Source: Microbacterium album (GTDB lineage Bacteria; Actinomycetota; Actinomycetes; Actinomycetales; Microbacteriaceae). From it: a stretch of 64,000 nucleotides of DNA. The stretch spans positions 1 to 64,000 of the forward strand of contig NZ_BMJY01000008.1 in NCBI RefSeq assembly GCF_014643695.1, in the 5' to 3' direction. A model generated the notes under the pieces. It worked only from the letters and a program-made list of their open reading frames with translations. It made no database searches and was not told the origin of the DNA. This document shows positions 254 to 14,152 of this stretch, one piece after another. The translations under genes and the position numbers were made by a program. Position 1 is the first letter of the stretch, and every line of letters starts with the position of its first letter.

Positions 254-254
254 G

Positions 255-722: not shown

Positions 723-977
723 GCTTACGAGTCTTCAGCGCCACGGCTACCGTCGCCACAGGGAGTTCACGCCATACTCGCGCACGTCCACCCGTGACTT
801 GGAAGCCAGATTCGATGCGTGCGGACTGCTTGCGATTCATCGGGTCGATGACCTCAGCAGTGCTTAGGGCATCCGGGTTCGGATCAGCGAGGACGGCCCG
901 GGGTTCCGTCAGCAATAGTGATGGAAGCCCCGCTCGTCGTCCTTCGGAGCCGGAAGCCCGGAGGCTAAGGCGTTCAA

Positions 978-1000
978 GGGTACGCAGATTGTGCGTACCC
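978..1000. promoter_or_regulatory. 23-bp palindrome, operator-like (copy 1)
   Basis: Arms GGGTACGC and GCGTACCC flank a 7-nt spacer (agattgt). The site is 40 bp upstream of the ATG at 1040. A copy in inverted orientation with one spacer mismatch is at 3020-3042, and no other copy was seen in the island. Symmetry and position fit a dimeric regulator's operator. Function is inference. Confidence 0.5.
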
Positions 1001-1039
1001 CCTTCGAACCATGCTGCGAGCTCTTCGCGGCGAGCCGTC

Positions 1040-1987
1040 ATGCCTCATACCCTCGGTTCCGTGGACTTCAAAGCTACGTACGAGCGGAAGCCAACGCCAG
1101 ACGATGAGGGCAGTGACTGGCTGTACCGCGACCCGACGACGAAACGGACTCACCGAGTAGAGATCGACGTCGTCCCCGACCAGGCTCGGAAGATCCGGAT
1201 TCAGCACCTTGATCGAGACATGCGGGGCAAGTCTGAGTGGGTGCCAATCGGACGGGCAAAGGTGCCCTGGGCCGTCGCCGACGACTACCTAGCCACTGTT
1301 GCCATGTGGGCGCGTGCCGAGCGTCACCGCCCTGGTGCCGCCAAGTCGGATCTCGCCGCGAGGTTGCTCGCTGTGTACGTGGACGAGCGCGTCGCTGGCA
1401 TCTATTACAACGGAGCCAGCGGCATCATCGAGATCCATGATGTACCTGAACTGGCGCGGCTGTGTGGCCTTCCACCTGAGGCGCTGGTTGAGCACGAGGA
1501 CACGTTTACGGATGGGGCGACCTACGCGCCGTGGCCCACGACTGAGCTAGTTGTGAAGAGGCTGGTAGCGCGAGACCCTCAACCTGCTTCCGAGCACCTC
1601 GCTTCGCTTCGCGCGGACGACCTGCGGTCAGCGAAGCGCACGATGATGGATGGGGACCCCTGGTGGGTCTCTCCAACATGGGACGACGACCCCACGGCAC
1701 AGCGCCTGAGGCAGTGGAATGAGCAGGATGCTACGACTCGGAAGTACCTGAGCCAGCTGCTCGACGACGAAACGCCAGGACTCGCAGAGGACTTCCTGAC
1801 CCTTCGTCAGATGTACCTGGATCTCGTCCGGCTCATGCCGCACGCTACTGAGAGGATCAGGATGACGCGTGCGCGAATCTCGGAGGCGCTGGCAGAAGAG
1901 ATCGAGAGGCTCGTTGCCCGTCCCCTACCCCCGAGCGCTGCTCTGTTAGGGGCAGACGAGCCGACAGAGAAGGATCGGTCCATCTAG
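1040..1987 (+). CDS. Hypothetical island cargo protein (315 aa)
   Basis: I do not recognise this family. The frame is open further upstream, but ATG at 1040 (MPHTLGSVDFKATYERKPTP) is the likely start because earlier translation is low-complexity and Arg/Ser-rich. Residues 1-60 look like a beta-rich domain (YERKP..DDEGSDWLYRDP, RVEIDVVPDQ). The middle is helical with several Trp and acidic residues, and the C-terminal third is a long charged helical region (RMTRARISEALAEEIERLVARP). No signal peptide or membrane segment. It stands alone on the plus strand at the distal end of the element, where satellites commonly keep accessory or defence genes, and has a palindrome upstream. A defence or interference role is only a positional guess. 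Confidence 0.7.
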   Translation: MPHTLGSVDFKATYERKPTPDDEGSDWLYRDPTTKRTHRVEIDVVPDQARKIRIQHLDRDMRGKSEWVPIGRAKVPWAVADDYLATVAMWARAERHRPGAAKSDLAARLLAVYVDERVAGIYYNGASGIIEIHDVPELARLCGLPPEALVEHEDTFTDGATYAPWPTTELVVKRLVARDPQPASEHLASLRADDLRSAKRTMMDGDPWWVSPTWDDDPTAQRLRQWNEQDATTRKYLSQLLDDETPGLAEDFLTLRQMYLDLVRLMPHATERIRMTRARISEALAEEIERLVARPLPPSAALLGADEPTEKDRSI

Positions 1988-2339
1988 GAGCCCCCTACGA
2001 ACTGCTCCAGCTGGCCTCTCTTCATCGATCGCGGCCTCACGTTCGGCAAGCATCTCCGGAGCAGCGTGGCATGGTCATCCCTCCACTCATCGTCGGGGAG
2101 GACGAGTGTAGAGCCAGGGGGCGCTGCTGACTCGATGCTGTCGGGTCGTCAAGCTGTGGTTATGGCGGGTCTCTGCCTGTAGGACTGCTGAAGATGCGGC
2201 TGGGGATTGTCCACATGTATTAAGCCAGGTAACGTGAGGGACGTGACTGCTTCCCTGCCCATGATCACCATGCTCCGCCGCGGGTCCGGCTCAGGCGCCC
2301 GCCGCAACGTCGTGGACCGGGCAGACTACGGTACTCGCG
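1988..2339. other. Gene-poor stretch in the island
   Basis: 352 bp with no convincing gene. A 69-codon frame from a TTG at 2207 lacks a ribosome binding site and overlaps the next gene. No clear terminator hairpin or repeat was found. Confidence 0.4.
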
Positions 2340-2888
2340 GTGCACGTCAGCCAAGCAGGGCAGAGCGGGATCGGGTTCGCGCGCTTCTTGCGGACCGTGG
2401 TACTCGACTGGCGTAACGCGAGCGGTTCGCAACACCGAGCGCACCTGAGCGTTTTCCGGTGCACGCAGCCGGAGGACTCGACGTACGACGAAGACAGCGG
2501 CCTCGAGACTCACGACTATCCGTGGGAGTACGAGGTCCAGGACTACGTTCGCCGCAGGCATGTGCCGGCGCATCCGCCAGAGTTTCTGCTCCTTGGGTAC
2601 GACGATAAGGGTCTGGCCGCGGTCATCGAGATCAAGGTCAGCGAGTTCGACCGCTTCTGCTTCATCGCCGCAGTCGCGATTGCTCAACGTGTCAGCGGTC
2701 GCGGCCTGGCTGCCGAGGCACTTGCGAGAGTGCACAACGTGATGACGGCGTACCGTATAACGAGCAACTACACGGCAATGGCGCGTATCGACCCGGACAA
2801 CTGGCCAGCGAAGAGCGCATTCGCGAAACAGGGCTATGAGTACCTCGAGATCCAAGAAGGCTACGAGCTCTGGGCTCGGAACTTCTGA
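2340..2888 (+). CDS. GNAT-family N-acetyltransferase
   Basis: 182 aa from GTG at 2340; the start is uncertain because no strong ribosome binding site is visible. The C-terminal half has the GNAT core: a beta4-like strand FCFIAAVAIA, the acetyl-CoA pyrophosphate loop QRVSGRGLA (Q/RxxGxG/A) with the following helix LAAEALARVH, then the beta5-alpha4 part TAMARIDPDNWPAKSAFAKQ and a GYE strand typical of family members. The N-terminal 60 residues are not recognised. The substrate cannot be predicted; small island-borne GNATs can be drug, tRNA or toxin acetyltransferases. It is a single gene followed by a hairpin. Confidence 0.75.
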   Translation: MHVSQAGQSGIGFARFLRTVVLDWRNASGSQHRAHLSVFRCTQPEDSTYDEDSGLETHDYPWEYEVQDYVRRRHVPAHPPEFLLLGYDDKGLAAVIEIKVSEFDRFCFIAAVAIAQRVSGRGLAAEALARVHNVMTAYRITSNYTAMARIDPDNWPAKSAFAKQGYEYLEIQEGYELWARNF

Positions 2889-2926
2889 CCGGCATGATCC
2901 GCGCCTCCTGAGCCGCCCGAGCCTGT

Positions 2927-2959
2927 CCGGTGTGGGGTGGCGAAACACCACCCCACCGG
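2927..2959. terminator. GC-rich hairpin after the GNAT gene
   Basis: Inverted repeat with arms ccggtg-tggggtgg and ccaccccaccgg (two-base bulge) and a short loop, about 40 bp after the stop at 2888. There is no clear T run, which is common for GC-rich actinobacterial terminators. Confidence 0.5.
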
Positions 2960-3019
2960 CCATCTCAAGGCGGCCGTGATTCGCCACTCCCTTGAGGTGC
3001 TTGGCTGTGGTCTTACCGA

Positions 3020-3042
3020 GGGTACGCACAATCCGCGTACCC
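3020..3042. promoter_or_regulatory. 23-bp palindrome, operator-like (copy 2)
   Basis: Arms GGGTACGC and GCGTACCC around spacer acaatcc. This is the inverted copy of 978-1000 with one mismatch in the spacer. It lies in the intergenic space between the GNAT gene and the leftward gene ending at 3117. Confidence 0.5.
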
Positions 3043-3116
3043 TTCTCGTCGACCTCCAGGGAGCGCGTCATCGCCGCGGTGGACGAGTAGCTAAGGCCGC
3101 TGCTTGTGCGTGAGCG

Positions 3117-3527
3117 CTACTGCTGCGGTGGTAGATCCGATTGACGCGTGATTCGGATCGGCAGGTCACGTGTCCCCCGTACACGCATCCTCAGCTCGAA
3201 CATGTGAGTGATTGCCCTCAGGAACTCGTACGGGTCGACATCGTGCACGAGGAACTCCGTCGCGGGGATCTCGCCACCGTTTGCCTCGGCAACGCGCGGA
3301 TAGACGTCACCACCTTCCGGAATGTGCTCACGGTGCACCGCCACGACGTGAAGCTCGTGCCCTGTCTCGCCCCCGCCGATGTCAAAGCCGATGATCCGCC
3401 ACTCGTCGGGATTCAGCCCAACAGTCCGCTCGGGTGAACGGCCCGTCATCTTCTGGTCGAGTTGCGCGGTGCCCTTCCAATCGGGGTACGTGACCTCCGC
3501 GTCACGCCAGACGAAGCCCTCGCTCAT
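3117..3527 (-). CDS. Conserved hypothetical protein (136 aa)
   Basis: Soluble and acidic, starting MSEGFVWRDAEVTYPDWKGT. Not recognised as a named family. The sequence shows an N-terminal beta-rich domain (WRIIGFDIGGGETGHELHVVAVHRE) and a C-terminal stretch with DVDPYEFLRAITHMFELRMR, then a polar tail. No transmembrane segment. ATG at 3527 overlaps the stop of the upstream 42-codon gene (ATGA), so the two are translationally coupled and probably act together. A small helical partner plus a beta-rich protein would fit a two-component accessory module, but no function is claimed. Confidence 0.7.
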   Translation of the reverse strand: MSEGFVWRDAEVTYPDWKGTAQLDQKMTGRSPERTVGLNPDEWRIIGFDIGGGETGHELHVVAVHREHIPEGGDVYPRVAEANGGEIPATEFLVHDVDPYEFLRAITHMFELRMRVRGTRDLPIRITRQSDLPPQQ

Positions 3528-3652
3528 GATTCAAGCGCCGTGTTATAGACAGCACCTTCAACGCCCTCGACTGCATCCTTGATCTCCTTGAGCAGCTTCG
3601 TCTGCTTCTGCAGTTCAGACAAGATCTGTCGCAACTCGTGCTCGCCAGCCAT
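3524..3652 (-). CDS. Small coiled-coil protein (42 aa)
   Basis: ATG at 3652 has a strong ribosome binding site (AAGGAGGG) about 7 nt upstream. The product MAGEHELRQILSELQKQT... is one amphipathic helix with heptad-like Leu/Ile spacing (ILSEL, TKLLKEIKDAV). It ends in ALES with the stop overlapping the start of the next gene (ATGA). Function unknown; size and helicity resemble small binding partners or antitoxin-like proteins. The ribosome binding site and coupling make it credible despite its length. Confidence 0.6.
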   Translation of the reverse strand: MAGEHELRQILSELQKQTKLLKEIKDAVEGVEGAVYNTALES

Positions 3653-3856
3653 GTGCTTCACCCTCCTTCGTCGTGCGGATAACGCCGATGCTCTCACAAG
3701 GGACAGACATTGCGCTCGCGGCCCTTCAGTAGATGACTACTTGGCCTTTGTCCGCGCTGAGCGTCACTAGGGCTAAGCTCTCCCGAAATGTGAACCGTGC
3801 GAAGCGGCCCCGACCTCGTATGGGCGCCGAGGGTTTCATTCAGTACGCTCGTCGGC

Positions 3857-4296
3857 ATGCGCCGTATCGCGGTACTGCCCCTCATTGTCTTGCTGCTTCT
3901 AAGCGCCTGTTCGCGGGACCCGGCGCACCCAGACCAGCTTTCAGCGCCTGTTCCTGCGACCTCTGGAACCGAGTCACCTGCCGCGCTTCCAGCGAGCGGT
4001 GAGGAGTACGTCTGGAGTCCTGTCGAGGTTTCTGACGAGTGCTCAGGAGCGTTGCAGCTGCGGCAGACATCCCCGGTGACCAGATCGCAGATGAAGAGTT
4101 GAAAGCCACGGTGTACGTGTGCCGGACGGTCGACGAGTGGGTGACTGCTGTGCGGGAGAGGCCCGAGGCCATGGGGCTCAAGGGCCCCGAGTTCGTGGAC
4201 CCTGTGATCGACATGGCGACGATCTCCTTTCACGAGCGGGAGGCACCTGCATGCCTGGATGGTGTTGCTCGTTCGCTAGACCGCCACTGGAAGTAG
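3857..4296 (+). pseudogene. Lipoprotein gene with a frameshift
   Basis: Frame 1 starts at ATG 3857: MRRIAVLPLIVLLLLSAC, a clear signal peptide with lipobox LSAC, then a Pro/Ser/Thr-rich linker and EEYVWSPVEVSDECSGALQ. It then goes out of frame and stops at 4102. The next frame, open from 4039 to 4296, continues plausibly with AAADIPGDQIADEELKATVYV, CRTVDEWVTAVRERPEAMG and a C-terminal DGVARSLDRHWK. Joining the two between about 4039 and 4060 gives a single lipoprotein of about 146 aa with two or three cysteines. A one-base indel, real or a sequencing error, explains this best; two overlapping genes is less likely. Confidence 0.6.
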
Positions 4297-4337
4297 AGCC
4301 CCCCAGAGACCGGGAGCATGCCGATATCCTCGCAACC

Positions 4338-4622
4338 ATGGATGACCCCATCACTCCCGTCGAGCTAGCTCGCGAGCTCGGGCACGTGGAGCAGCGTCCG
4401 GGCAAGATGGTCCGCGATTTCCTGCGTGCCCGGTACGGCGACCAGCACGAGCACTATTCGCGGTGGCAACTGACGCCACAGCAGGCGAACGAGGTTCGTG
4501 CTCATTTCCGTGGCATGCTCACCCCGTCAGAGGTGCGGGACATGCTCGCGATCGCGGACGTTGCCACCGTTGATGAGTTGGTCGAGAAGCTGCGGGACTA
4601 CCTCAACGCCGAGGGCTCTTGA
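4338..4622 (+). CDS. Small HTH-like DNA-binding protein (94 aa)
   Basis: Starts at ATG 4338 (MDDPITPVELARELGHVEQR). The pattern ITPVELARELG...GKMVRDFLRARYG...RWQLTPQQANEVRAHF resembles the actinobacterial and phage layout in which an N-terminal helix-turn-helix (VELAxxLG..pkxVRxFLR) is followed by RWxLTpxqAxxV. The C-terminal half (SEVRDMLAIADVATVDELVEKLRDYL) is helical. A regulatory or nucleoid-type role is plausible. It lies 41 bp after the broken lipoprotein and in the same orientation. No close family name is assigned. Confidence 0.6.
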   Translation: MDDPITPVELARELGHVEQRPGKMVRDFLRARYGDQHEHYSRWQLTPQQANEVRAHFRGMLTPSEVRDMLAIADVATVDELVEKLRDYLNAEGS

Positions 4623-4812
4623 CGCATGGTGACGGCGTTGCGCCACACGACCGCTTCTCGGCGGGTTTGTGCGGCCAGGTGACCCATGCCCACACCCGAG
4701 AGGGGAGCGATTCGGGTCATGCCGCGCCGGGCGACGCGTGGAGCATAGGCGTAAGTGCGGACACTCAGCTTCGGCGGTAGATCGCAAAGAGCCGCGGTGG
4801 GACACTGGGAGC

Positions 4813-5037
4813 ATGAGGGAATCGGCGTTTTGGCTCGGCGTCCTCATCGTCGCGTGCTTCAGCGTGTCTTGGGCGTCGGCAGCTCCGTTGCCGGTGGCGC
4901 TTGTTCTTGGCTTTGCGGCGGCGGGGCTGATGGGATGGTCCCTCCTGGCTCTGCTGGCGATTGCCCGTTCTGCACAGCGCGAACGGTCTCCTCGAGGAGC
5001 TGCTGGAACTGCTCCTCGCTCAGCTGGTTCCCGCTAA
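4813..5037 (+). CDS. Possible small membrane protein (74 aa)
   Basis: Two hydrophobic segments, about residues 5-22 (AFWLGVLIVACFSVSW) and 27-50 (PVALVLGFAAAGLMGWSLLALLAIA), then a basic Ser/Gly tail. It overlaps the 3' end of the leftward gene 4859-5461 by 179 bp. That overlap is large, and the opposite-strand gene has the better family evidence, so this may be a shadow frame. Confidence 0.35.
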   Translation: MRESAFWLGVLIVACFSVSWASAAPLPVALVLGFAAAGLMGWSLLALLAIARSAQRERSPRGAAGTAPRSAGSR

Positions 5038-5461
5038 GAGCTACCAGCGCGACGATCGCGCTGATGACCGCGACGAGCACGGATGCCCAGGCGGCTGCCG
5101 CCATGCTCGTCGGGCCGCGGAACTTCTCGAGCCACGGTTTCGCCTGAGGGATGTTCTCGACAAGAGTCTGCTCAAGTACCCGGACCTTCTTCTCGTCATC
5201 GACTGAGTCCGCCTGCTGCTGAACCCACGCGAGGCTCTGCTTAAGTCGGTGCAGCTGTCTCGGGCTGAGCCGTAGAGTTGCAGTCGTTCGCCCGTTGATG
5301 TCGTTGTATGTGCCATCGACGTAGCTCGCAGATTTCCCGCAGGCCGGACATGTTCCCGTGGATCCGGAGATGGTCAGGTTGACCACGTTCTCGAAGTAAA
5401 TGCCGCTCTGGTCATTAACGAAGCCGTGCTCCTCGCAGAACAGGACCGGGGTGGGCGACAT
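4859..5461 (-). CDS. Zinc-ribbon membrane protein, conserved hypothetical
   Basis: 200 aa from ATG 5461 (MSPTPVLFCEEHGF); the frame is open to 5578 but the extra N-terminus is low complexity. The N-terminal domain has paired cysteines (LFCEEHG, TCPACGKSASYVDGTYN) around a right-handed-beta-like NVVNLTISGS segment, a layout seen in widespread bacterial hypothetical proteins with a CxxCG ribbon followed by DGTY/F. Residues about 70-115 are helical (LRLSPRQLHRLKQSLAWVQQQ). One membrane segment follows (SMAAAAWASVLVAVISAIVA), then a helix (SEEQFQQLLEETVRAV) and a Pro/Gln-rich tail. Function unknown. Confidence 0.65.
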   Translation of the reverse strand: MSPTPVLFCEEHGFVNDQSGIYFENVVNLTISGSTGTCPACGKSASYVDGTYNDINGRTTATLRLSPRQLHRLKQSLAWVQQQADSVDDEKKVRVLEQTLVENIPQAKPWLEKFRGPTSMAAAAWASVLVAVISAIVALVALSGNQLSEEQFQQLLEETVRAVQNGQSPAEPGGTIPSAPPPQSQEQAPPATELPTPKTR

Positions 5462-5561
5462 GCCGGGAACGCTACTGCACCCGCAAGTCTCCGCACAACG
5501 CACGGAACCGCCCCTCCCGGGGAGCCAGCCACCGTCATCATGATGATCATCATGTGCGGTG

Positions 5562-5657
5562 TCAACCGTAGATGACATGCAGTAGCGCGATTCGCACGGC
5601 GGTCATCACCGCTGTGAGGTCGAGCTTGATAGTCCACGAGACGCGGATCTCGATCAT
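5562..5657 (-). CDS. Very small protein (31 aa) with good RBS
   Basis: ATG at 5657 is preceded by AAGGGGA at about 6 nt. The product MIEIRVSWTIKLDLTAVM continues to ...LLHVIYG and is hydrophobic, beta-then-helix. It ends inside the possible extended N-terminus of the next gene (start at 5578 in another frame), so it may be a leader that couples translation of 4859-5461. Not recognised. Confidence 0.4.
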   Translation of the reverse strand: MIEIRVSWTIKLDLTAVMTAVRIALLHVIYG

Positions 5658-5734
5658 TGGGAACTCCCCTTGCCGCTGAACTGGTGTTGTCATGGCGGCG
5701 GAGTCTAAGGGGCTCCTGAGCCCTCTTCGGGGGG

Positions 5735-6115
5735 TTAGCGTCGGTAATTTACGACGCGGTCCCGTATGCCCATACATCCATCGTAGGTGCTGATCCCTCG
5801 ACGAGGAGGGGGCTGCGGCTTCCGCGGCTCAGGTCGGGTGTACTGCTTCCCGTCCATGCCGGTGATCGGCGGCGGGGTCGGGAACTCCGCCTGCTGACGC
5901 TCGATGCGAGCGAGAACCGCATCGCGCTCAACGCCTGTCATCGGCTCGAACTCGACGGGCGCGACCTCCCCGGCCGGGATCGGCTCAGGATCGTTCAGGT
6001 GTTCAGAACTGAACACCTGCGACGCCTCGCGATCTGCATGAACCGTGCCGACGCTCACTCCGACGATGGGTGCGATTGCTCGGGTGCTCATGCCCTGCGC
6101 GCTGAGCTCGGCCAT
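5735..6115 (-). CDS. HTH protein with TGMDGKQY motif (126 aa)
   Basis: The N-terminus MAELSAQGMSTRAIAPIVGVS forms a helix-turn-helix (SxRAIAPIVGVSVGTVHAD), followed by an acidic linker and the motif ITGMDGKQYTRPEP. This combination (HTH after a ParB-like region, then TGxDGKxY) is typical of the C-terminal half of ParB-like regulators of actinobacterial phages and integrative plasmids. The usual N-terminal ParB-like part is absent, so it is a short or truncated family member. It starts 9 bp after the stop of the upstream gene and is likely co-transcribed with it. DNA binding is the probable role. Confidence 0.65.
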   Translation of the reverse strand: MAELSAQGMSTRAIAPIVGVSVGTVHADREASQVFSSEHLNDPEPIPAGEVAPVEFEPMTGVERDAVLARIERQQAEFPTPPPITGMDGKQYTRPEPRKPQPPPRRGISTYDGCMGIRDRVVNYRR

Positions 6116-6124
6116 GGGATCAGT

Positions 6125-6451
6125 TCAATCGGCACCCGGCACCTCCTGCTGGGGTGGGCGCGGGTGGATATCGAGGATCACGCGGCGTGCTGTGAACATG
6201 AAGTCCCCGAGTCGTTTCGTGATCAGCGGGACCGCGGCGACGGGGGCTTCCCTGAGGGTGTGCCTGGTCACGAGCAGGGCCACGTGTTCGGCGATGAGTC
6301 GGGCGTAGCCGGGTTGCGTCTCGTGCGCGATGCGGATGATCTCGGTCCTGGCGGACGGTGAGTCAGAGCCGGACATAAGGAGTGCGAAGACCTGTAGGGC
6401 TTCTTCGTTCGCTCGTTCCGGGTCGATGGCGAACATCCCGCTGCCGTTCAT
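6125..6451 (-). CDS. Hypothetical protein downstream of tape measure (108 aa)
   Basis: Starts MNGSGMFAIDPERANEEALQ; all-helical and soluble by eye, not recognised. Its ATG overlaps the stop of the tape-measure gene (ATGA), which suggests translational coupling and a common transcript. In phages the position after tmp normally holds distal tail genes, but this protein does not resemble them. A regulatory role is possible because the next gene encodes an HTH protein. Confidence 0.6.
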   Translation of the reverse strand: MNGSGMFAIDPERANEEALQVFALLMSGSDSPSARTEIIRIAHETQPGYARLIAEHVALLVTRHTLREAPVAAVPLITKRLGDFMFTARRVILDIHPRPPQQEVPGAD

Positions 6452-9303
6452 CGGATTTGCCTCCCTCTCGTCACCGTCTGCGCACGACGCGCCTCACTCG
6501 CATGGATCCGCTGATCCGCTTCAACCCTCATCCGGGCGACGATCGCACCGTCCACGTCCTTCACGATCAACGTGTCAGGCATCGTAGGTGCCGACTGCGC
6601 GCCGCCAAGGACACCGAGACGGACCCCCGACTCAACCCACACACCGACGTTGCGCTCCTTCTGGTCCGGCTTCCCGGAGATGTACGCCTCCCACAGCGTC
6701 TCCGGCTCAGCGAACTTATGAATCGCCTCCGGACGCCCCTGATAGATGCCGGGGCCGGCGAACCCGCCGTCCCTGAACGCTTTCGCGTAGTCGTACAGGT
6801 TGCCGTCTGCATTCGGCTTCGGCGGCGAGGCGAGTCCCCGCACTCCACCGCTGGCGTCGATGCTGATGTGCTTCGTGGATGGGGTGGCGGCCAGTTGGCG
6901 GTTGAGTTCCCTGATGTGATCGATCGCGGCACCGGACCCTGAGAGGCTGATGTCGATGTTGCGGTGTGTGGGGATCTCGTTCGCCGCTCGGGCGACGTCG
7001 CGCAACCCGTGCTCGACGTCTTCCGCGCGTCCGAGGTTCTCGTCCGCCCATCGGACGGCTTCCTCTCGGGACAGTCCCATCGCTTCGAGTTGTCGGATGA
7101 TCGCGTCCCGGCCACGCGTGTATGCGTCGGTGACCTCGTCGGCGGACTTGCCGTTGTCGATCATCGCTTCGGCGGCGGCACGGTGACGTTCCTCCACCTG
7201 GCGGAGGGAGTCACGGAGCCGGATCGACGCGTCGTTCGTGCCGTCCAGGGTGACGCCTGATGCCTTGGCTGCTTCCGTCATCGAGTTGATCGCGGACTGG
7301 GCGGAGTCCTGCGCGTCCCCCATGTCCATCGCCGCGCGACCGAGGTCTGCCAACGCCTTCCGGTAGGTGTCCAGCGTCTCCTCACCGGCCTCGACCTCCC
7401 CGTGGAGTGCCATGAAAGCCGCCTCCGCGTCCGAGACCGGTGGCTTCACCTCCCCGAGGGCAATCTTCAGCAGGGTGGCGTCATCCGCGGTGAGCCCCAT
7501 TTCGTCAGCGACTCTGATGAGGTTGTCCCGCAACGTGTCGGACGAGTGGATCAGGGTCAGGATGTTCGCGTCTGTCAGCTCGAACTCGTCCCGCAACGCG
7601 CCCATCGTCGCGACCGCGTCATCGACGCTGAGCTGAGCGAGGGCGTCCGCAGCGTTCTCAACGCTGGCTTTCAGTTGGTCGAACCAGATATCGATCGGGT
7701 CGGAGCTGTTGCTAGAAGGGCGGCCCCGCTGGATCTGGTCAAGCACCCCGCCGAGGTCCTGGATCGTCTCCTTCACGCGCTCCACCTCCCAGGGGAACGC
7801 GGTGCCCTGGACCGCCTTCGCGAGGGCCTCATCGAGGCTGCCCTTGCTGATCGCGTTGGACAGGTCCGTGACGCTGGCCTCGGTTCCCTTCAACGCGTCT
7901 CCGAAGGCTTCCAAACCGGCCACAGCGGCGCTGAGCACTGCCGTCGCTGCCATCGCCTTGAACGCGACCGTGGTGATGCGGGCGGCGCGTTGCGCGGTGG
8001 GACCGAGGGTCTCCAGCGCCAGTCGGTACTCGACGATCTTCGGGACGCCCATCAGCATCGCCCCGGACGCCAGAGCAACAGCACCGCCCAGCCCCGTAGC
8101 GATCCCGATGATTCCCTGCACAGGGTCGGGCAGGTCCCCGAGGGCCTGAGCGAACTCGGCCACGCGCCCCGACGTTTCCGCGACGACCGGGAGGAACACC
8201 TCTCCGAAATCGATCGCCGCGTCCCGGATGGCGTTCGCGGCGATCGCGACGCGAGCCTCAACAGTCTCGTACCGCTTCGCGGCCTCCTCCGTCAGAGCGT
8301 TGTTCGCCTCGAACTCCCTGTTACCAGTCGCCATCGCCTCGGTGAACATGTCCGCAGCCGAGGATGAGCGCAGCAGCGCGTCGCGCATACGAACCTCAGT
8401 GATGCCCAACTCCGCGAGCACACCAAGCGTGGACGAGCCCTGCGCCTCCGCGTTCGCCAGGCCCTTCACGAACGCCGCAAGCGCCTCAGACGGGGCCGTA
8501 CGCCACTGCTTCGAGAACTCCTCCGCGGACATGCCCGCCGTCTTCGCGAACATCGCGACACGGTCGCCGCCCTCCTCAACCGACGCGGCAATGTCGATCA
8601 TCACCTTCGACATCGCCGAACCGCCGGCCTCAGCCTCGATACCCACCGAGGACAGCGCCGTCGCGAGACCCAGCACGTCACCCTCGGAGAGACCGATCTG
8701 ACGGCCCGCACCAGCGAGACGCATCGACATTTCGAGGATCTCGGACTCCGTCGTGGCGTAGTTGTTGCCCAGCCCCACCAGCGCCGAACCCAGGTTCGAC
8801 ACCTGTTCCTGCGAGGTGCCCATGATGTTCGTGAACCGCGCCAACGCCGTAGCCGCGTCATTCGCGGACAGGTTCGTCGTCTCACCGAGATCGATCATCG
8901 TCCGCGTGAACTCGACGACGTTCTCCGTGCGGATGCCGAGCTGACCTGCCGCCTCAGCAACCGCCGCGATCTCGTCATGCGACGCCGGCAAAACCGACGT
9001 CAACCCCCGCAAACCCTCCTCAACAGCCGCCAACTGCTCCGGAGTGCCATCAACCGTCTTCGTGACACCAGCCCACGCCGACTCCCACCCCATCGCCGCC
9101 TTAACTGACAGCGCGGTCATCGCCGTCATCGCCGTACCAACACCAAGCGCAGTCCGTCCCAACAGATCAAACGCCTGACGCTTCTGCGCGAGCTTCTCCG
9201 CCTCAGAACCCGTCTCCCGGGTAGACCGGGCGGCATCCTGCATCGCCTTCTGATACTCCGCAACCTGCGCGGAGAGAGTCACCTTTACAACTCTGTTCGC
9301 CAT
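6448..9303 (-). CDS. Phage tail tape-measure protein (951 aa)
   Basis: The N-terminal 50 residues are a charged helix (VTLSAQVAEYQKAMQDAAR). They are followed by the TP901-type core with alternating helices: GTAMTAMTALSVKAAMGWE, WAGVTKTVDGTPEQLAAVEE, GQLGIRTENVVEFTRTMIDL, LAGAGRQIGLSEGDVLGLAT. About residues 390-470 contain two hydrophobic segments (IIGIATGLGGAVALASGAML, VAFKAMAATAVLSAAVAG). The tail has GGFAGPGIYQGRPEAIHKFA, common at actinophage tape-measure C-termini. The protein sets tail length and passes DNA during infection. The frame is intact, yet no tail tube, chaperone or distal tail genes are present, which is unusual. The ATG is one base past the upstream stop (TGAgATG). Confidence 0.9.
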   Translation of the reverse strand: MANRVVKVTLSAQVAEYQKAMQDAARSTRETGSEAEKLAQKRQAFDLLGRTALGVGTAMTAMTALSVKAAMGWESAWAGVTKTVDGTPEQLAAVEEGLRGLTSVLPASHDEIAAVAEAAGQLGIRTENVVEFTRTMIDLGETTNLSANDAATALARFTNIMGTSQEQVSNLGSALVGLGNNYATTESEILEMSMRLAGAGRQIGLSEGDVLGLATALSSVGIEAEAGGSAMSKVMIDIAASVEEGGDRVAMFAKTAGMSAEEFSKQWRTAPSEALAAFVKGLANAEAQGSSTLGVLAELGITEVRMRDALLRSSSAADMFTEAMATGNREFEANNALTEEAAKRYETVEARVAIAANAIRDAAIDFGEVFLPVVAETSGRVAEFAQALGDLPDPVQGIIGIATGLGGAVALASGAMLMGVPKIVEYRLALETLGPTAQRAARITTVAFKAMAATAVLSAAVAGLEAFGDALKGTEASVTDLSNAISKGSLDEALAKAVQGTAFPWEVERVKETIQDLGGVLDQIQRGRPSSNSSDPIDIWFDQLKASVENAADALAQLSVDDAVATMGALRDEFELTDANILTLIHSSDTLRDNLIRVADEMGLTADDATLLKIALGEVKPPVSDAEAAFMALHGEVEAGEETLDTYRKALADLGRAAMDMGDAQDSAQSAINSMTEAAKASGVTLDGTNDASIRLRDSLRQVEERHRAAAEAMIDNGKSADEVTDAYTRGRDAIIRQLEAMGLSREEAVRWADENLGRAEDVEHGLRDVARAANEIPTHRNIDISLSGSGAAIDHIRELNRQLAATPSTKHISIDASGGVRGLASPPKPNADGNLYDYAKAFRDGGFAGPGIYQGRPEAIHKFAEPETLWEAYISGKPDQKERNVGVWVESGVRLGVLGGAQSAPTMPDTLIVKDVDGAIVARMRVEADQRIHASEARRAQTVTRGRQIR

Positions 9304-9304
9304 C

Positions 9305-9628
9305 TCACTGCCCCTTCACCTTCGAAAGACGCTCCCGCGTCGCATCCGCGCTCCAGCTGCCCTCGATCGACAGCTGGTTAACCCGGTGCCAGTCCGGGAA
9401 CTTCGGGTACGTCGGATTCCCATAGCCGTTCGCGACCAGCCACGCCCAGATCGCCTCTTTACGTCGACAAGCCGGACCCACGTCGAACGTCTGCCCCGGC
9501 GTAAGCCCGTGCCTTTCGAACCAGCGTCGCGACGCGGCAGGGTCGTCCCACAACGGCTCCCCGCGCCGCAGAAGCTCTACAGGCACCTCACCAGGCCCCT
9601 GCCCAGGACGTTGCCGCAGCCTAGGCAC
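9305..9628 (-). CDS. Hypothetical phage-type protein between terS and tmp (107 aa)
   Basis: GTG at 9628 overlaps the last codons of terS, so translation is coupled. The sequence has EPLWDDPAASRRWFERHGLT, then GQTFDVGPACRRKEAIWAWL and VANGYGNPTYPKFPDWHRV. Aromatic-rich and soluble; not recognised. It could be a packaging or head-tail adaptor-type partner of the small terminase, but only its position suggests this. Confidence 0.65.
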   Translation of the reverse strand: MPRLRQRPGQGPGEVPVELLRRGEPLWDDPAASRRWFERHGLTPGQTFDVGPACRRKEAIWAWLVANGYGNPTYPKFPDWHRVNQLSIEGSWSADATRERLSKVKGQ

Positions 9629-9992
9629 CCCGAACCGCCTTAGAACGCTCCCAACGGGCCTTCGCCGCGGCCTGAGCGGCCGTCGAGATCTGACGGGACA
9701 TCGCCACCGCCCCCTCAGCAGCCTCAAGGTTCAGCTGCGTCAACAGGCGGGCTACCGTCGCCTGCTGTTGACGCAACTCCGCCACCGCCGGATGCAACAC
9801 CTGCTGCCCCGTGGAACCGGTAATCATCAGCCCGTCCGCCTCGATCACGTCCTCAAGCGCGTCGATCCGGTCCAGCGAACGGCACGCCTCGAGCAACACA
9901 GGCGTCTCATGCTCGTCAAACTCGTACTTCTTGACCAGCTCCCGCCACAGGGCGCGGCCGCGGCGTTTAAGCACCTTCGGTACAGCAGTCAT
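9621..9992 (-). CDS. terS: Phage terminase small subunit, P27 family
   Basis: 123 aa from ATG 9992, with GGAGA 5 nt upstream. It matches the P27 pattern: LKRRGRALWRELVKKYEFDE, ETPVLLEACRSLDRIDALED, IEADGLMITGSTGQQVLHPA, VAELRQQQATVARLLTQLNL, then a basic C-terminus. P27 proteins bind the cos or pac site and recruit the large ATPase/nuclease subunit. No large subunit gene exists in the element, so this TerS would have to work with a TerL supplied elsewhere, as in satellites that redirect a helper phage's packaging. The following gene starts within its last codons. Confidence 0.88.
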   Translation of the reverse strand: MTAVPKVLKRRGRALWRELVKKYEFDEHETPVLLEACRSLDRIDALEDVIEADGLMITGSTGQQVLHPAVAELRQQQATVARLLTQLNLEAAEGAVAMSRQISTAAQAAAKARWERSKAVRGA

Positions 9993-10488
9993 CGCATCTC
10001 CAATTACTCGAATAGCGGTACGAAAATGAAGGTCCCGCACGCATCGACCAAGAATTCCCCTCCCAGGCGACCGACTGAGGGGCGTCCGAGGTGGGGTACC
10101 CCCCGGGTTTGGTTCCGAACCTTCGTACATTCGTTCGGCTCTCCTCGTGGTCTTCGAGCGGTTTCGACGAGGACCGGCCGTCGGGACTGCTCGTAGTCCG
10201 GGCACCGGTAGTCGGGGCCACATGCCGGGGCCTCCTGGGTGCCCGGATGGTGAGCGCCCACACACCGACGGGGGCCTGTGACGCGGGGTAGACGGCGGAC
10301 CTGGCTCGCGTCCGGTGGGCGCTGGTCTGCATCTGGTTGATGGTGGACAGATCTTCGGCGGCGGGTGGCAGCGCCCGGGTAGGTGGTCTCGAGGGTGTGA
10401 ACGTGTCCCCCCATGCCTTCCGGGGAACCCCCTCACGGCGATGGCGCGGTGAGGGTGCGGGGCGCGATTCGTGCTTCACGGCGTTCAC
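9967..10488 (-). CDS. Doubtful reading frame upstream of terS (173 aa)
   Basis: GTG at 10488 lies just after the stop of the 42-codon gene. Its segment EDLSTINQMQTSAHRTRARS...VGVWALT resembles the C-terminus of the gene at 10634-11206 (TDLAEINHMQTSREHKLAAS...AGVWTL), and the DNA is similar over about 100 bp. After that the frame is Pro/Arg-rich and runs into terS. It is probably a partial duplicate or decayed gene with a noncoding tail. Confidence 0.3.
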   Translation of the reverse strand: MNAVKHESRPAPSPRHRREGVPRKAWGDTFTPSRPPTRALPPAAEDLSTINQMQTSAHRTRARSAVYPASQAPVGVWALTIRAPRRPRHVAPTTGARTTSSPDGRSSSKPLEDHEESRTNVRRFGTKPGGYPTSDAPQSVAWEGNSWSMRAGPSFSYRYSSNWRCDDCCTEGA

Positions 10489-10490
10489 CC
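9993..10490. other. terS upstream region, candidate packaging site
   Basis: 498 bp with no strong gene. It includes the G/C tract at 10091-10108 (ggggtaccccccgggttt on the plus strand) and nearby short repeats (gtagtccgggcac, gtagtcggggcca). G-runs of this kind directly upstream of terS are where cos or pac sites usually lie in actinophages. It also contains the partial duplication described for 9967-10488. Confidence 0.35.
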
Positions 10491-10619
10491 TCAGTCGTCG
10501 ATGTCTCGACCGGTTTGCTCGAGCACGGACTCAAGCTCTTGGAGGAAGGTGCCGAGGCCGTGTATGCGCGGGGACCGGTAGACGGCGTGAAGGATGTCCA
10601 TCGCCTCCGTGTCCGTCAT
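10491..10619 (-). CDS. Small acidic protein (42 aa)
   Basis: ATG 10619 starts MTDTEAMDILHAVYRSPRIH, ending in ESVLEQTGRDIDD. It is a compact helical, acidic sequence with no membrane segment. It lies 14 bp downstream of the 190-aa gene and is followed at once by the doubtful GTG frame at 10488 (overlapping spacing). Not recognised. Its consistent codon use and tight spacing support expression as part of the early transcript. Confidence 0.45.
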   Translation of the reverse strand: MTDTEAMDILHAVYRSPRIHGLGTFLQELESVLEQTGRDIDD

Positions 10620-10633
10620 GGTGCGATCGGCCA

Positions 10634-11206
10634 TCAGAGTGTCCAGACCCCTGCGGGCGTGGAAGGCAGGGAGTACGCGGCAGAGGCTGCGAGCTTGTGC
10701 TCGCGACTGGTCTGCATGTGATTGATCTCGGCGAGGTCGGTGGCAGTCCGCGCGTCCTTCGGGTACTCGCGTTTGAACGACTCATATGTCTCCACCCATC
10801 CCTTCTGCGTGGCTCGCTGGGCGAGAGCGAGGGCAAGGGTGCGGTCGCCGCTGAGCGTGGCCCGCTCCATGAGGCGTTCGGCCTCTCTCTCGTCTTCGAT
10901 GCGGTCGGCTCGGTCCTGTGCGTCGCGCAGGGCTACGAGCTGGCTGGGGTCGTCGCCGACGGCTCCCGTGAGTCGCTTTCCGAGGTCGCGTGCGCGGGTA
11001 TGCAGGAGCTGCTCTTCACGTGCTCGCAGGGCGTCGATGGAAGCGCGGGCTTCGCGGTGGGCTTCACCTGTGCGCTCACGCTTCGCGAGGTCGCTGGCGT
11101 AGGCGTCAGCCCGGATCTGCGCGATGGTCTTGGCGAGATTGGCGCGGATCGTTGCGGCTTCATCTCGGAGAGCGAGCACCTGACTGATGGTTGTGCTGTT
11201 ACTCAT
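10634..11206 (-). CDS. Coiled-coil island protein (190 aa)
   Basis: ATG 11206 has AAGGA upstream and overlaps the stop of the preceding gene (ATGA). Residues 1-120 are continuous charged helix (MSNSTTISQVLALRDEAATI, ANLAKTIAQIRADAYASDLA, EARASIDALRAREEQLLHTR), then helices around ERLMERATLSGDRTLALALA. The C-terminal motif TDLAEINHMQTSREHKLAAS followed by PAGVWTL is echoed in the frame at 9967-10488. The family is unnamed; long helical proteins in this place in phages are often scaffold- or packaging-associated, but the sequence shows nothing specific. Confidence 0.7.
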   Translation of the reverse strand: MSNSTTISQVLALRDEAATIRANLAKTIAQIRADAYASDLAKRERTGEAHREARASIDALRAREEQLLHTRARDLGKRLTGAVGDDPSQLVALRDAQDRADRIEDEREAERLMERATLSGDRTLALALAQRATQKGWVETYESFKREYPKDARTATDLAEINHMQTSREHKLAASAAYSLPSTPAGVWTL

Positions 11207-11613
11207 GAGTGGTTCCTTGTCTGTCTGGGACTGTGACCGGTGATGTACGTCTTTGCGTCGTCGTTGGTGATGACCCATGTGTTGCCGTGTTTGACGGCGG
11301 GCAGGGTCTTTCGTTCGATGTCGAGTCGGACGGTTCGTGGTGCCCGCCTGGTGGCTTGGGCGATCTGGTTGACCGTCCAGTGACTACGTTCCTCTGATGC
11401 CGTTTCTTGCCGCGGTTCGTTGCCGGGAGCGGTACTGAACGCGCAGATCGTGATCGCGCGGAGAAGGTCATAGATCGCGCTGTCACCCACGCGGTATCTG
11501 CTGCGGAGCTCCTTTATGCGAGCGGCTTGGTAGAGCATCCTCGCGTCGTCCGGGGAGAGGATGAGCGCACCGGCCGGGAGGATCCGCATGGAGCGGGGCT
11601 CGTAGGTGCTCAT
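11203..11613 (-). CDS. HTH DNA-binding protein (136 aa)
   Basis: ATG 11613, two bases after the rep stop at 11616. The N-terminal part (MRILPAGALILSPDDARMLY, RIKELRSRYRVGDSAIYDLL) is helical. The C-terminal part, residues about 85-130, is an excisionase/MerR-like HTH: HWTVNQIAQATRRAPRTVRL, ERKTLPAVKHGNTWVITNDD, AKTYITG. A control function for replication or excision is likely given its place between the replication protein and the structural-type genes. Its stop overlaps the next start. Confidence 0.7.
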   Translation of the reverse strand: MSTYEPRSMRILPAGALILSPDDARMLYQAARIKELRSRYRVGDSAIYDLLRAITICAFSTAPGNEPRQETASEERSHWTVNQIAQATRRAPRTVRLDIERKTLPAVKHGNTWVITNDDAKTYITGHSPRQTRNHS

Positions 11614-11615
11614 CG

Positions 11616-12476
11616 TCAGGCCACCTCCAGCATGTCGGGGATGAACCCGCGGTCTGCCCACTCCCGCCCAACTGGCGTTAGGGCGTTGTAGGCGGGTGTC
11701 CCGTACTCCGGTCCCTCGTACCTGTCGTACCGGGGGATCTGCCGGAGGTACCTGTCGATGAGGTCTTGAGCCTCCAACTTGGTGAGGGTCTTCCATGTGT
11801 CCTTGCTGCGGGCGTTCGGGATTTGGCCGGTGAGGTGGATGTGGAGGTCGTGCAGGTAAGCGCGCTGCTTGTCGGTGCTGGTTGCGGGCTCGAAGGTTGT
11901 GACACTGTCGTGTGCGCTCGGAAGAGCGGACCTGAAAGTTTCTTCATTGGTCTTGTTCTCATTGGGCTTATTCGGGTGCCTCGGAGTCACTACCCCTGGT
12001 GACTCGGAGTCACTACCTAGTGCCTCGGAGGCACTACCCGAAGAGTCGACGGCCCGACGTAGTGACTCGGAGTCACTACGTGCAGTGCGTGCGGCATTCG
12101 CGAGCCGTGCACGTGATTCCGGCGACAAGTTGCGCTGGGGCTTCCGCCGGCCCTTCGCGGACACGTGCCACCAATCGCCCTGGCTCTCGCTGAGCACCGC
12201 GACCTCGTACACGTTCGGGCGGTTCTTCTCGCCGACGTTGCGCTGACGGGTGACTTTGATCGCGCTGTGTTCCTCGAGGCCGCTAATCGCTCGGATGACG
12301 CTGCGGCGCGACAGTCGCGATTCGTCAGCGATGGTCGACAGCCCCGGCCAGCACTTGCCCGTGGTTGGGTTTCGGTGCTTCAACAGAACGATGTAGACGA
12401 GCAGTTCATGGGCGTTGAGGGCGCTGTGTTCGATGACCGTGTTCGGCAGTCTGATCCAACCGTCTGTGTCAGTCAC
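11616..12476 (-). CDS. Replication initiator-like winged-helix protein with internal iterons
   Basis: 286 aa, GTG 12476 preceded by AAAGGAGGGGG. The N-terminal 100 residues match replisome-organizer/RepA-type winged helix domains: GWIRLPNTVIEHSALNAHEL, YIVLLKHRNPTTGKCWPGLS, TIADESRLSRRSVIRAISGL. A low-complexity linker (RSDSESLRRAVDSSGSASEA, LGSDSESPG) is encoded by the iteron palindromes at 11976-12079. The C-terminal 110 residues (STDKQRAYLHDLHIHLTGQI, WKTLTKLEAQDLIDRYLRQI) form a small helical domain of the type seen in phage initiators. Origins inside the initiator gene are known in lambdoid and lactococcal phages. It probably drives autonomous replication after excision. Confidence 0.75.
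   Translation of the reverse strand: MTDTDGWIRLPNTVIEHSALNAHELLVYIVLLKHRNPTTGKCWPGLSTIADESRLSRRSVIRAISGLEEHSAIKVTRQRNVGEKNRPNVYEVAVLSESQGDWWHVSAKGRRKPQRNLSPESRARLANAARTARSDSESLRRAVDSSGSASEALGSDSESPGVVTPRHPNKPNENKTNEETFRSALPSAHDSVTTFEPATSTDKQRAYLHDLHIHLTGQIPNARSKDTWKTLTKLEAQDLIDRYLRQIPRYDRYEGPEYGTPAYNALTPVGREWADRGFIPDMLEVA
11976..12079. repeat. Iteron-like palindrome array, candidate origin
   Basis: Four copies of a palindrome with core GTGMCTCGGAGKCAC: 11976-11990 (one mismatch between arms), 11999-12013 (7+1+7 perfect), 12019-12035 (8+1+8 perfect, with GCC/GGC in place of GAC/GTC) and 12059-12079 (10+1+10 perfect). Centres are at 11983, 12006, 12027 and 12069, spaced 23, 21 and 42 (two times 21) bp, close to two helical turns. 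Compensating substitutions in copy 3 keep the symmetry, which indicates selection on DNA structure or protein binding. Confidence 0.7.
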
Positions 12477-12510
12477 CCGCGACCCCCTCCTTTCGGTTTT
12501 CAGTTGTGGA

Positions 12511-12541
12511 GACGGCCCCTGGGGGAGTCCCAGGGGCCGTC
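12511..12541. terminator. Strong hairpin upstream of rep
   Basis: Perfect 13-bp stem GACGGCCCCTGGG / CCCAGGGGCCGTC with a 5-nt loop, between the 81-aa gene and rep. On the minus strand it is followed by an A-rich stretch and the rep ribosome binding site rather than a T run, so it could attenuate or process the transcript and limit read-through into rep. Confidence 0.55.
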
Positions 12542-12547
12542 CGGCGA

Positions 12548-12793
12548 TCAGTCGTCAAGTCCTCGGAGCCGCTCATCGACGCCGGCGTCGCGCTTGAGGA
12601 AGCGGGGCGGGTTCGGAAGGTCCGCCGCGAGCGTGGCGAGCCTGTCCGCTACGGCAAGCGCTAGCCCCTTATCCAGCGGCGTGACTTGCCCGTTCACACC
12701 CAGAATCCCGACCTCGGCTATTGCGCCATTCGCGTCGACGACGTTCACGACGATCTCCGAGGCCTCTGCGACGGCCCGCTGAGCGTCGGTCAT
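12548..12793 (-). CDS. Small hypothetical protein (81 aa)
   Basis: ATG 12793 overlaps the stop of the preceding gene (ATGA). The sequence starts MTDAQRAVAEASEIVVNVVD, with a strand-turn-strand NVVDANGAIAEVGILGVNGQ, then helix ALAVADRLATLAADLPNPPR and an acidic end. Soluble; not recognised. Third of four coupled early genes upstream of rep. Confidence 0.6.
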   Translation of the reverse strand: MTDAQRAVAEASEIVVNVVDANGAIAEVGILGVNGQVTPLDKGLALAVADRLATLAADLPNPPRFLKRDAGVDERLRGLDD

Positions 12794-13125
12794 GCGGTCA
12801 CCTCCTGCGAGACCTCGTCGGGCGTCGGCTGAGCCTGCCGCGTCGACTCGTCTTCGACTGCGTGCCTGTACTGCTTCTCGACCGCTCTCATCTCGCGCAT
12901 GAGGCGGTTCTTCTCGAGCCGCAGCCGATTCCACTTGACTGTCAGCTCGCGCAGCTCGGTGCACTTGCGACAGTCGGGAGCCCCGGGCAGGTCCGGGCGG
13001 CCGGATGTGCCGACCTGGACAGTCGGGACGAAACTCCGACCGCAGTACGTCTGCACTTTCGTTCCCTCGATCATGGCGAGCGTGATGTCGAACGCGGGCA
13101 TGACGTGGTGGTTCACGGGTCTCAT
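12790..13125 (-). CDS. DUF3039-like zinc-binding protein (111 aa)
   Basis: Resembles the actinobacterial DUF3039 layout: an N-terminal HHVMPAFDITLAMIEGTKVQ, then TYCGRSFVP and PDCRKCTEL, in which the Cys of YCG plus CxxC and the His pair would bind one zinc. It is followed by a long charged helix (RLRLEKNRLMREMRAVEKQY) and a polar tail. DUF3039 has no known function, but such proteins are common in actinobacterial chromosomes and phages. ATG 13125 overlaps the stop of the upstream gene, and its own stop overlaps the next start. Confidence 0.6.
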   Translation of the reverse strand: MRPVNHHVMPAFDITLAMIEGTKVQTYCGRSFVPTVQVGTSGRPDLPGAPDCRKCTELRELTVKWNRLRLEKNRLMREMRAVEKQYRHAVEDESTRQAQPTPDEVSQEVTA

Positions 13126-13691
13126 CGGGTCACCGCCTGACGAGTCACCTCAGCGGACAGGACGTCAGCGATCTCTCGTAGCGATTCCCCGAGCCTGCTC
13201 AGCGCGAGCGGTGAGGCCTCAAGCTCCGCGGCTCCATCCCGCCCGTACACGCAGAACTTAGGCGGGCAGGTGCTGACAGTCCCAGCCGGCATATCGTCGT
13301 CCCCGTCAGGGGAGATATCGTCCTCTACCGTCACGCTTATCATCTGCTCGAAGCCGACGTTGGTGAAAGCGGCATTGAGGATCGTTTTCCTGAACCAGAT
13401 GCTCACGTTCGGCCAGTCGTCGGCATACACCTGCACTTCGTCGGCCCAAGCGGGCGTGGGAAAGGGGAGGTCCTTGATCTCGCTGACCATGACTTGGAAG
13501 TAGAGCGTGCCGAGGTAGGCTCCGTGCTCCGGGAGGTGGGCAAGGATCTGCTCCTCAGTGAGCCGCACCACGTTCCGATCCACGAGTTCGTCAATGCGGG
13601 AGTCAGTCACTGACGTGATCGGCTTGCCCAGCTCCGCGCGCATGATGCGCAGACGGTCGATGAATCCCAGCTGTTCTGCCAGAATGGTCAT
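13122..13691 (-). CDS. Hypothetical early island protein (189 aa)
   Basis: ATG 13691 chosen because AAGGAGAACC lies 5-10 nt upstream. The N-terminal half is helical (MTILAEQLGFIDRLRIMRAE, SRIDELVDRNVVRLTEEQIL). The middle looks beta-rich (LYFQVMVSEIKDLPFPTPAW, VQVYADDWPNVSIWF, TNVGFEQMISVTVEDD), and the C-terminus has a short Cys pair (STCPPKFCVYG) and a helix. Not recognised. First of three overlapping genes, 118 bp downstream of the AlpA-like gene. Confidence 0.6.
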   Translation of the reverse strand: MTILAEQLGFIDRLRIMRAELGKPITSVTDSRIDELVDRNVVRLTEEQILAHLPEHGAYLGTLYFQVMVSEIKDLPFPTPAWADEVQVYADDWPNVSIWFRKTILNAAFTNVGFEQMISVTVEDDISPDGDDDMPAGTVSTCPPKFCVYGRDGAAELEASPLALSRLGESLREIADVLSAEVTRQAVTR

Positions 13692-13809
13692 GATCGGTTC
13701 TCCTTCTTCCTGGTTGGTGTTCTGGTCTTCGCCCTCGACCGAGTTGCCGCTCATGTGGTCGGGGGCTCTTCTCGTCCCAGCTGGTGCTGGCGAGCGAGCT
13801 GTGCTGGCC

Positions 13810-14031
13810 TCAGCGCCGACGCGCATCGGTCGTTTCGCAGGCAGCGCCAAGGGAGTCGAGCCAGGAGAGCACGTCCCCCTTGCGGTAGCGCACGCTTCCT
13901 CCGAGGCGCGTCACCTTCGGGCCTGTGCCTTCCATTGCCCAGCGCGCGAGGGTTGGAACGCTCGTACCGGTGAACTCCGCGATCTCGACGCGCTTAGCGA
14001 GCTCGGGCAGATCGTCTATGGACCGAACCAT
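13810..14031 (-). CDS. AlpA/excisionase-type DNA-binding protein (73 aa)
   Basis: MVRSIDDLPELAKRVEIAEFTGTSVPTLARWAMEGTGP is a helix-turn-helix of the AlpA/HTH_17 type. It is followed by the typical wing KVTRLGGSVRYRKGDVLSWL. It is the first leftward gene and is divergent from the repressor, the standard place for an excisionase or an AlpA-type activator of a phage satellite. It would bind near attP to direct excision, or activate the early operon. Short size and a complete motif fit the family. Confidence 0.8.
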   Translation of the reverse strand: MVRSIDDLPELAKRVEIAEFTGTSVPTLARWAMEGTGPKVTRLGGSVRYRKGDVLSWLDSLGAACETTDARRR

Positions 14032-14117
14032 GCCATCCTCCTGTGAAATCCTCTCGTTAACGCCTGCATCCTGGCGGTTTTCTCATGTTGACACGGGATG
14101 CGCTCCAACGCAAGCGG

Positions 14118-14150
14118 AAAACTCATCCTGATCTCGTATAGGGTGAGTTT
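14118..14150. promoter_or_regulatory. Operator/promoter for repressor and divergent early genes
   Basis: Inverted repeat AAACTCATCC ... GGGTGAGTTT with a 13-nt spacer. It encloses TATAGG (14138-14143), which sits 9 nt before the repressor ATG, so that transcript would be nearly leaderless. A further partial copy (gttttctcatg) lies at 14077-14087. The arrangement fits autoregulation by the XRE repressor. Confidence 0.5.
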
Positions 14151-14152
14151 TT

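Follow-up and report, generated by a model that had tools for sequence, protein, structure and literature searches.

The TerS-P107-TMP operon of a tRNA-Phe island

The 64,000-nt stretch of Microbacterium album analyzed here (the window; positions of the island, its loci and its operon are given in window coordinates) contains a 15.9-kb island at 255-16114 that is integrated in a tRNA-Phe gene and has a GC content of 0.64, as compared with 0.725 in the remaining window. Within the island lies a tight operon on the minus strand in which the gene for the terminase small subunit (TerS; 9621-9992) is followed by P107, a 107-residue gene with a GTG start (9305-9628) that overlaps TerS by 8 nt, by a gene for a 951-residue tape-measure protein (TMP; 6448-9303) that begins 1 nt after P107, and by a 108-residue gene (6125-6451) that overlaps the TMP stop by 4 nt. 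From the gene content, the best explanation of the island is that it is a phage satellite, and the pairing of TerS with a TMP recurs in other islands, where the TMP belongs to several distinct types.

A first-pass annotation of this DNA had described a full-length TMP standing alone beside TerS. The reading of the gene is sound: the frame runs from an ATG start with no internal stop, is assigned by phrog_13339 (E 5.9e-150) and by Pfam PhageMin_Tail (70.8 bits against a curated cut-off of 33.2), and aligns over residues 3-951 with the TMP of a family prophage (locus L058), which indicates that the C-terminus has been kept. The claim that it is alone stands for the window, where no tail-tube, chaperone or baseplate gene was recognized, but not for some of its relatives, which carry a chaperone gene just upstream of the TMP. 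When the structural proteins of three phages (Footloose, AGM1 and LuckyBarnes) were compared with window positions 1-18000 by tblastn, the TMP was the sole match, and the Pfam search of island open reading frames (ORFs) of at least 85 residues gave no TerL, portal, tail-tube or baseplate family among the best 25 of 39 families pooled over eight islands. Neither search recognized a capsid gene in the window.

The TerS assignment rests on phrog_1496 (2.7e-21) and Terminase_4 (2e-7). P107 has no phage match at E 0.01, and its predicted fold (mean per-residue confidence, pLDDT, 77.9; predicted template-modeling score, pTM, 0.70) has no match below E 0.001 in the PDB or among viral models. The 108-residue gene has no assigned family, no convincing relative in 398 genomes of the family (the best other match, at E 1.4e-4, has a stop inside) and only chance-level matches to genes upstream of other TMPs.

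The remaining anatomy is that of a discrete integrated element. The left copy of the attachment (att) site, at 255-293, is a 39-bp perfect repeat of the right copy at 16076-16114, which lies in the 3' part of the target, a tRNA-Phe (gaa) gene called by ARAGORN at 16077-16152 on the minus strand. Adjoining it on the plus strand are a tyrosine integrase (14859-16001; Phage_integrase 8.5e-19, phrog_1 3.8e-53) and a helix-turn-helix (HTH) repressor-like gene (14153-14887; phrog_8 1.7e-4, with HTH_31 and HTH_3 below cut-offs), and a replication-initiation-like gene lies on the minus strand at 11616-12476 (phrog_270 1.5e-18, HTH_36 9.9e-13). With an integrase, att sites and a packaging gene, and with no virion gene other than the TMP found, the island resembles phage-inducible chromosomal islands (PICIs), which are likewise small and integrated and carry an integrase, a repressor-like gene, a replication-like gene and TerS; the likeness refers to these four genes.

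Recurrence of TerS with a TMP in islands and exchange of TMP types

TerS is present in 23 of the 398 family genomes at E 1e-5, the source genome included. A TerS scan of species genomes gave 376 pattern matches, among which 8 loci were confirmed, in Agreia sp. PsM10 (L139), Microbacterium azadirachtae (L140), Zimmermannella bifida (L141), Pseudolysinimonas kribbensis (L142, identical to L053), Cryobacterium arcticum (L143), Leucobacter salsicius (L144), M. salsuginis (L145, identical to L180) and M. hydrocarbonoxydans (L146). A TMP lies within ~1.3 kb of TerS in six of them, and none was found in L141 and L143 with the TMP profile or by eye among ORFs of at least 500 residues. At E <= 1e-12, a TerS profile search identified 15 of 295 same-genus genomes, the source genome and M. 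salsuginis among them, and the fetched stretch contained a TMP at 11 of these loci (the window, L180, L181, L182, L183, L184, L185, L187, L189, L190 and L191). The TMP is upstream of TerS in L190 and 2.3 kb from it in L187; those of L184, L185 and L190 were missed by the TMP profile and found from ORF lists, and the loci called TMP-less (here L178 and L179, in which TerS is near a contig end, L186 and L188) were rechecked by eye among ORFs of at least 500 residues. Outside these sets, loci L065, L067 and L069 also showed no TMP. Gene calls were made with a home-made GC-frame script, which probably chose the wrong strand at least once (L145 9027-9614).

The exact trio of TerS, P107 and TMP is found in seven islands of Microbacterium, Pseudolysinimonas and Leucobacter (the window, L140, L142, L144, L145, L146 and L183), with P107 relatives supported by leave-one-out or independent profiles at E 1e-10 to 1e-17. 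The first-pass annotation had made its interpretation depend on whether the trio recurs outside full prophages and on whether the TMP frame is under relaxed selection; it does recur, in seven islands without a recognized TerL, portal or tail-tube gene. P107 also occurs without a TMP (L143, L178, L179), and further islands combine TerS and TMP with another small gene or with none; the small genes at the P107 position in L139, L181, L182, L184, L185, L189 and L191 do not match the P107 profile. Among 66 viral-contig loci, L108 has the order TerS, an 84-residue gene and TMP, whereas two viral contigs of 14.7 and 16.2 kb (L096 and L129) have a long TMP (1641 and 1336 residues) upstream of TerS, possibly a second layout of TMP-bearing satellites; these three were the smaller contigs of that survey read gene by gene. 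A pattern scan of species-genome contigs with the TMP alone gave 15 pattern matches, none of them a relative.

These islands differ from full prophages in spacing and in content. Between TerS and the TMP start lie 317-2289 nt in 15 islands, as against 8162-9616 nt in phages and prophages (the 15 loci showing both genes, one pair of which has identical TerS). In 14 islands the tblastn screen with the proteins of the three phages matched no genes besides TMP and chaperone, whereas 16 of 17 controls showed one or more structural genes other than the TMP; the screen missed the L139 capsid gene, which Pfam found, and even the L189 TMP. A Pfam search of 107 ORFs from eight islands, in which the only TMP sequence included was one fragment from L066, gave as virion families only TerS, Peptidase_S74 (two), one capsid and that fragment among the best 25 of 39 families, ordered by members and then E-value; the other 14 are single-member families weaker than ~1e-5. 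Among 66 ORFs of six more islands TerS was the sole virion family (all 16 families), and PHROGs gave no TerL or portal for the same 107 ORFs among the best 25 of 68 families; for L184, L185 and L190 the screen was tblastn alone. Two islands end just after the TMP, L139 with a 29-bp repeat (100%) at tRNA-Val (9.9 kb) and L146 with a 49-bp att-like repeat at 90% (10.1 kb). Relatives of the window TMP at E <= 1e-30 occur in 13 of the 398 family genomes, its own included, with L013-L015 as the three weakest. Of these relatives, L055, L056 and L058 lie with TerL, portal and capsid genes, L059, L060 and L061 with other head or tail genes, and L062 and L063 on contig fragments; L057 showed only the TMP in the tblastn screen but a baseplate match in a separate comparison.

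Several kinds of TMP occupy the position beside TerS. The TMPs of the window and L181 are of the AGM1/prophage type, and the best phage matches of the window TMP are the Brevibacterium phages LuckyBarnes and AGM1-type; nine other island TMPs group with Footloose and Arthrobacter phages, those of L144 and L189 are TMP_3, and the best matches are phrog_971 and phrog_58 for L184 and L185 and phrog_305 and phrog_58 for L190. The types are distinct, not unrelated, and have distant similarity in common. Footloose-like and AGM1/LuckyBarnes-like phages are thus the nearest phage relatives of most compared TMPs, as they are of the chaperone, but unlike the islands they are full phages, and 9.6 kb separate TerS from TMP in Footloose. 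We take the island TMPs to resemble those of siphophages. The well-supported branches of the TMP tree (28 rows, L144 left out) require at least four switches between satellite and phage; the window TMP is placed with family prophages at a support of 100/99. In the TerS tree (48 rows, 123 columns) the window instead falls in a clade (97/96) that comprises 14 satellite rows and none of the 16 phage rows, and within this clade sister satellites carry different TMP types (L181/L182 at 99/87, L144/L145 at 99/94). The simplest account of the clade would be one backbone with a retained and repeatedly refilled TMP slot. The TerS of L187 and L189 lie among phages, from which it follows that satellites with a TMP had more than one origin or have traded TerS.

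Of the TMP-bearing islands examined, only L066 has a disrupted TMP frame, owing to a frameshift in its assembly. Selection on the TMP does not look relaxed either: pN/pS, the ratio of nonsynonymous to synonymous differences per site, is 0.52-0.69 in eight TMP comparisons (six of one island with another, two of the window with a prophage) and not near 1, at pS of 0.56-0.66, which is close to saturation. The TMP is likely to be under constraint, of a strength that these values give only roughly, and part of that history may lie in phages. Island TMPs are also shorter, with a median of 908 residues for 13 of them (814-1028) against 1168 for 17 phage or prophage TMPs (Mann-Whitney p 2.4e-5), which is a hint only as the phage set was chosen by similarity matches and is not independent. 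The test left out the TMPs of L066 (split), L184, L185 and L190 (725-741 residues), L108, L096 and L129, and the long TMPs of the last two run against the trend.

Other genes accompany the TMP in some islands. A relative of the Footloose tail-assembly chaperone lies just upstream of it in L140, L145, L181, L182 (by profile only) and L191, and none was recognized in L183. In L142 and L066 a 226-233-residue protein with a Peptidase_S74 domain, as in tail fibers and spikes, is encoded just after the TMP (L053:13560-14240 and L066:13477-14178), and such satellites may supply receptor-binding parts. By eye, a 547-residue gene after the TMP of L184 (L184:4835-6478) looks like a spike, its only PHROG match being a weak one to head decoration (3.9e-4). 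L182, L183 and L191 have in common a 213-229-residue gene that overlaps the TMP end (L182:11877-12566, L183:6061-6702, L191:11831-12493); it has no assigned function and no Pfam match, and the L183 copy, the one searched, has no phage match. The 9.9-kb satellite of Agreia sp. PsM10 (L139:4314-14200) contains its own major capsid gene (Phage_capsid 1.1e-25) together with TerS and a 1028-residue TMP, and the TerS-bearing island L069 has a capsid-like gene (L069:11733-12626; phrog_283 1.8e-28).

Probable chimeric tails and competing explanations

How might a satellite use a tape measure in the absence of a tail of its own? The satellites known as phage-inducible chromosomal island-like elements (PLEs) of Vibrio cholerae carry a TMP and build chimeric tails, according to the accessible parts of a recent report (PMC12987554, Nature, March 2026). 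In PLE11 particles, as described there, the PLE-encoded TMP and baseplate hub replace those of ICP1, tails are ~10 nm shorter, and deletion of the TMP cuts transfer by ~99.9%. The proposal of the first-pass annotation that a satellite-borne tape measure would be a new form of piracy is overtaken by that work. As far as those parts of the report go, PLEs are alike in bearing a TMP without a full tail set, and in a chaperone that some of the present islands also have, but the helper of the PLEs is lytic and has a contractile tail, and a baseplate hub is found in some PLEs. The islands described here are found in Actinobacteria, have the TerS-P107 operon, and accept several TMP types in one slot; the comparison with PLEs is one of description. 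Capsid-forming PICIs (cf-PICIs) also have putative tmp genes (PMC12987554, Extended Data Fig. 10, within the same accessible parts) but make their own capsid, whereas no capsid gene was recognized in the window and one is present in L139; for classical PICIs, no TMP was noticed among the matches listed in the literature search, insofar as those sources were accessible.

By analogy with the PLEs, we consider it probable that the TMP of these satellites is built into chimeric tails whose other parts come from the helper. Once a helper phage became active, the island would excise and replicate, the satellite TerS would redirect the helper large terminase to satellite DNA, and the satellite TMP would replace that of the helper, with tail tube, terminator, tail tip and capsid coming from the helper. 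Particles formed in this way would have a chimeric tail, and the satellite would determine how long it is. Close relatives keep the TMP slot but differ in the type of TMP that fills it, as would suit a component that has to be compatible with the helper being exploited. The anatomy, the recurrence and the refilling of the slot are observations, from which we infer everything said here about particles.

Several points weigh against this model. The islands are known here from genes alone and not from induced particles, a helper or tails. The window lacks the recognizable chaperone that PLEs and some relatives have. P107 is patchy, being missing from several TMP-bearing islands, and the TMP is non-essential to the lineage, with none in two of the eight scan loci and four of the fifteen same-genus loci (two of these at a contig end); in L066 it is frameshifted. 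Finally, the TerS alignment has 123 columns and some of its branches are weak, and selection is shown only roughly with pS so near saturation.

We tentatively extend the chimeric-tail model to a further proposal, which may well be wrong, that the TMP slot is a helper-matching adaptor. The lineage would keep TerS and swap its ruler among several distinct types, mostly short ones, according to the helper tails available, satellite tails would be shorter than those of the helper, and the fibers, spikes or capsid gene of some islands would form a graded series from packaging-only to near-virion elements.

An alternative is that the TMP acts as a weapon against the helper: because the ruler is mismatched, helper tails would jam or come out shorter and helper yield would fall, and the TMP would stay out of satellite particles. 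Satellites do attack tail assembly, as exemplified in the accessible parts of two reports by PICI Tai (PMC11364771) and PLE11 Rta (PMC12987554), but Rta is only 80 residues in the latter, whereas full-length TMPs are kept here, some with a chaperone and two with a fiber-like protein. Moreover, the satellite itself needs tails, and we regard this explanation as unlikely. The TMP is also linked to DNA entry, and it could serve mainly to provide a route into the cell, or a way past exclusion by a resident prophage, that is unlike the helper's, with tail length as a by-product. The change of TMP type between sister satellites would be expected from such a role; a neighboring chaperone gene, present in some islands, speaks for assembly, nothing in these data separates entry from assembly, and we give this explanation little weight. 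That the island is a decayed prophage which lost everything except TerS and TMP is highly improbable: the window TMP does resemble family prophage TMPs (38-44% over most of its length), but the gene block is conserved, as a tight operon, among islands that differ in att site and integrase, the slot is filled by different TMP types, the window TerS falls in a satellite-only clade, and frames are unbroken in the window as in every examined TMP-bearing island but L066.

Satellite piracy of the TMP is thus already known. The literature searched, largely open-access and by listing, contained no report of satellites with a TMP in Actinobacteria, nor any description of a lineage there whose TMP slot is conserved and has been refilled repeatedly; a survey of actinobacterial prophages remarks, in its accessible part, that small elements may be satellites (PMC10023795). 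The present islands suggest that a tail ruler is not peculiar to Vibrio satellites and that the trait recurs in a distant phylum, where the gene slot is conserved and the ruler has been replaced repeatedly. Culturable Microbacteriaceae would allow tests of why a satellite should replace the helper TMP, how it prevails in the competition, and whether the choice of helper or the mode of entry depends on the TMP.

Flanks and remaining genes of the island

To the left of the island the contig extends for 254 bp, the left flank is only weakly comparable with relatives, and a tandem element may lie beyond the left contig edge. Misassembly with a nearby prophage was considered and rejected: the host genome (45 contigs) has no TerL_ATPase match and no second PhageMin_Tail match, these being the families searched there, and so gives no hint that the source was a broken prophage of this kind. 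In four same-genus genomes, the regions surrounding tRNA-Phe-like repeats lacked a TerS or TMP profile match, with one region ~1.3 kb short and the repeat in genome G410 far from the tRNA. Other islands at the same tRNA-Phe in same-genus genomes (L158 and L160), which have no TerS or TMP profile match, contain genes that by eye resemble those for DNA methylation.

The other genes of the window island are small or weakly assigned. On the minus strand, a 190-residue gene upstream of TerS (10634-11206) has no PHROG or Pfam family and has relatives at the same place in L066 and L067, as loci that also contain relatives of the neighboring HTH gene (11203-11613), which is weakly excisionase-like (phrog_1840 0.0017, scanned with a longer start). 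A second weakly excisionase-like small gene (13810-14031, minus) matches a small gene near the L052 integrase at 38% (E 3e-6), and three small genes without assigned function are ORF calls only (12548-13691, minus). Beyond the 108-residue gene lies a 126-residue HTH-like gene (5735-6115, minus; phrog_29861 7.5e-5, HTH_23 below cut-off), and the left-end genes called as ORFs between 444 and 5578, which have no clear function apart from HTH_17 in 444-722, are possible cargo.

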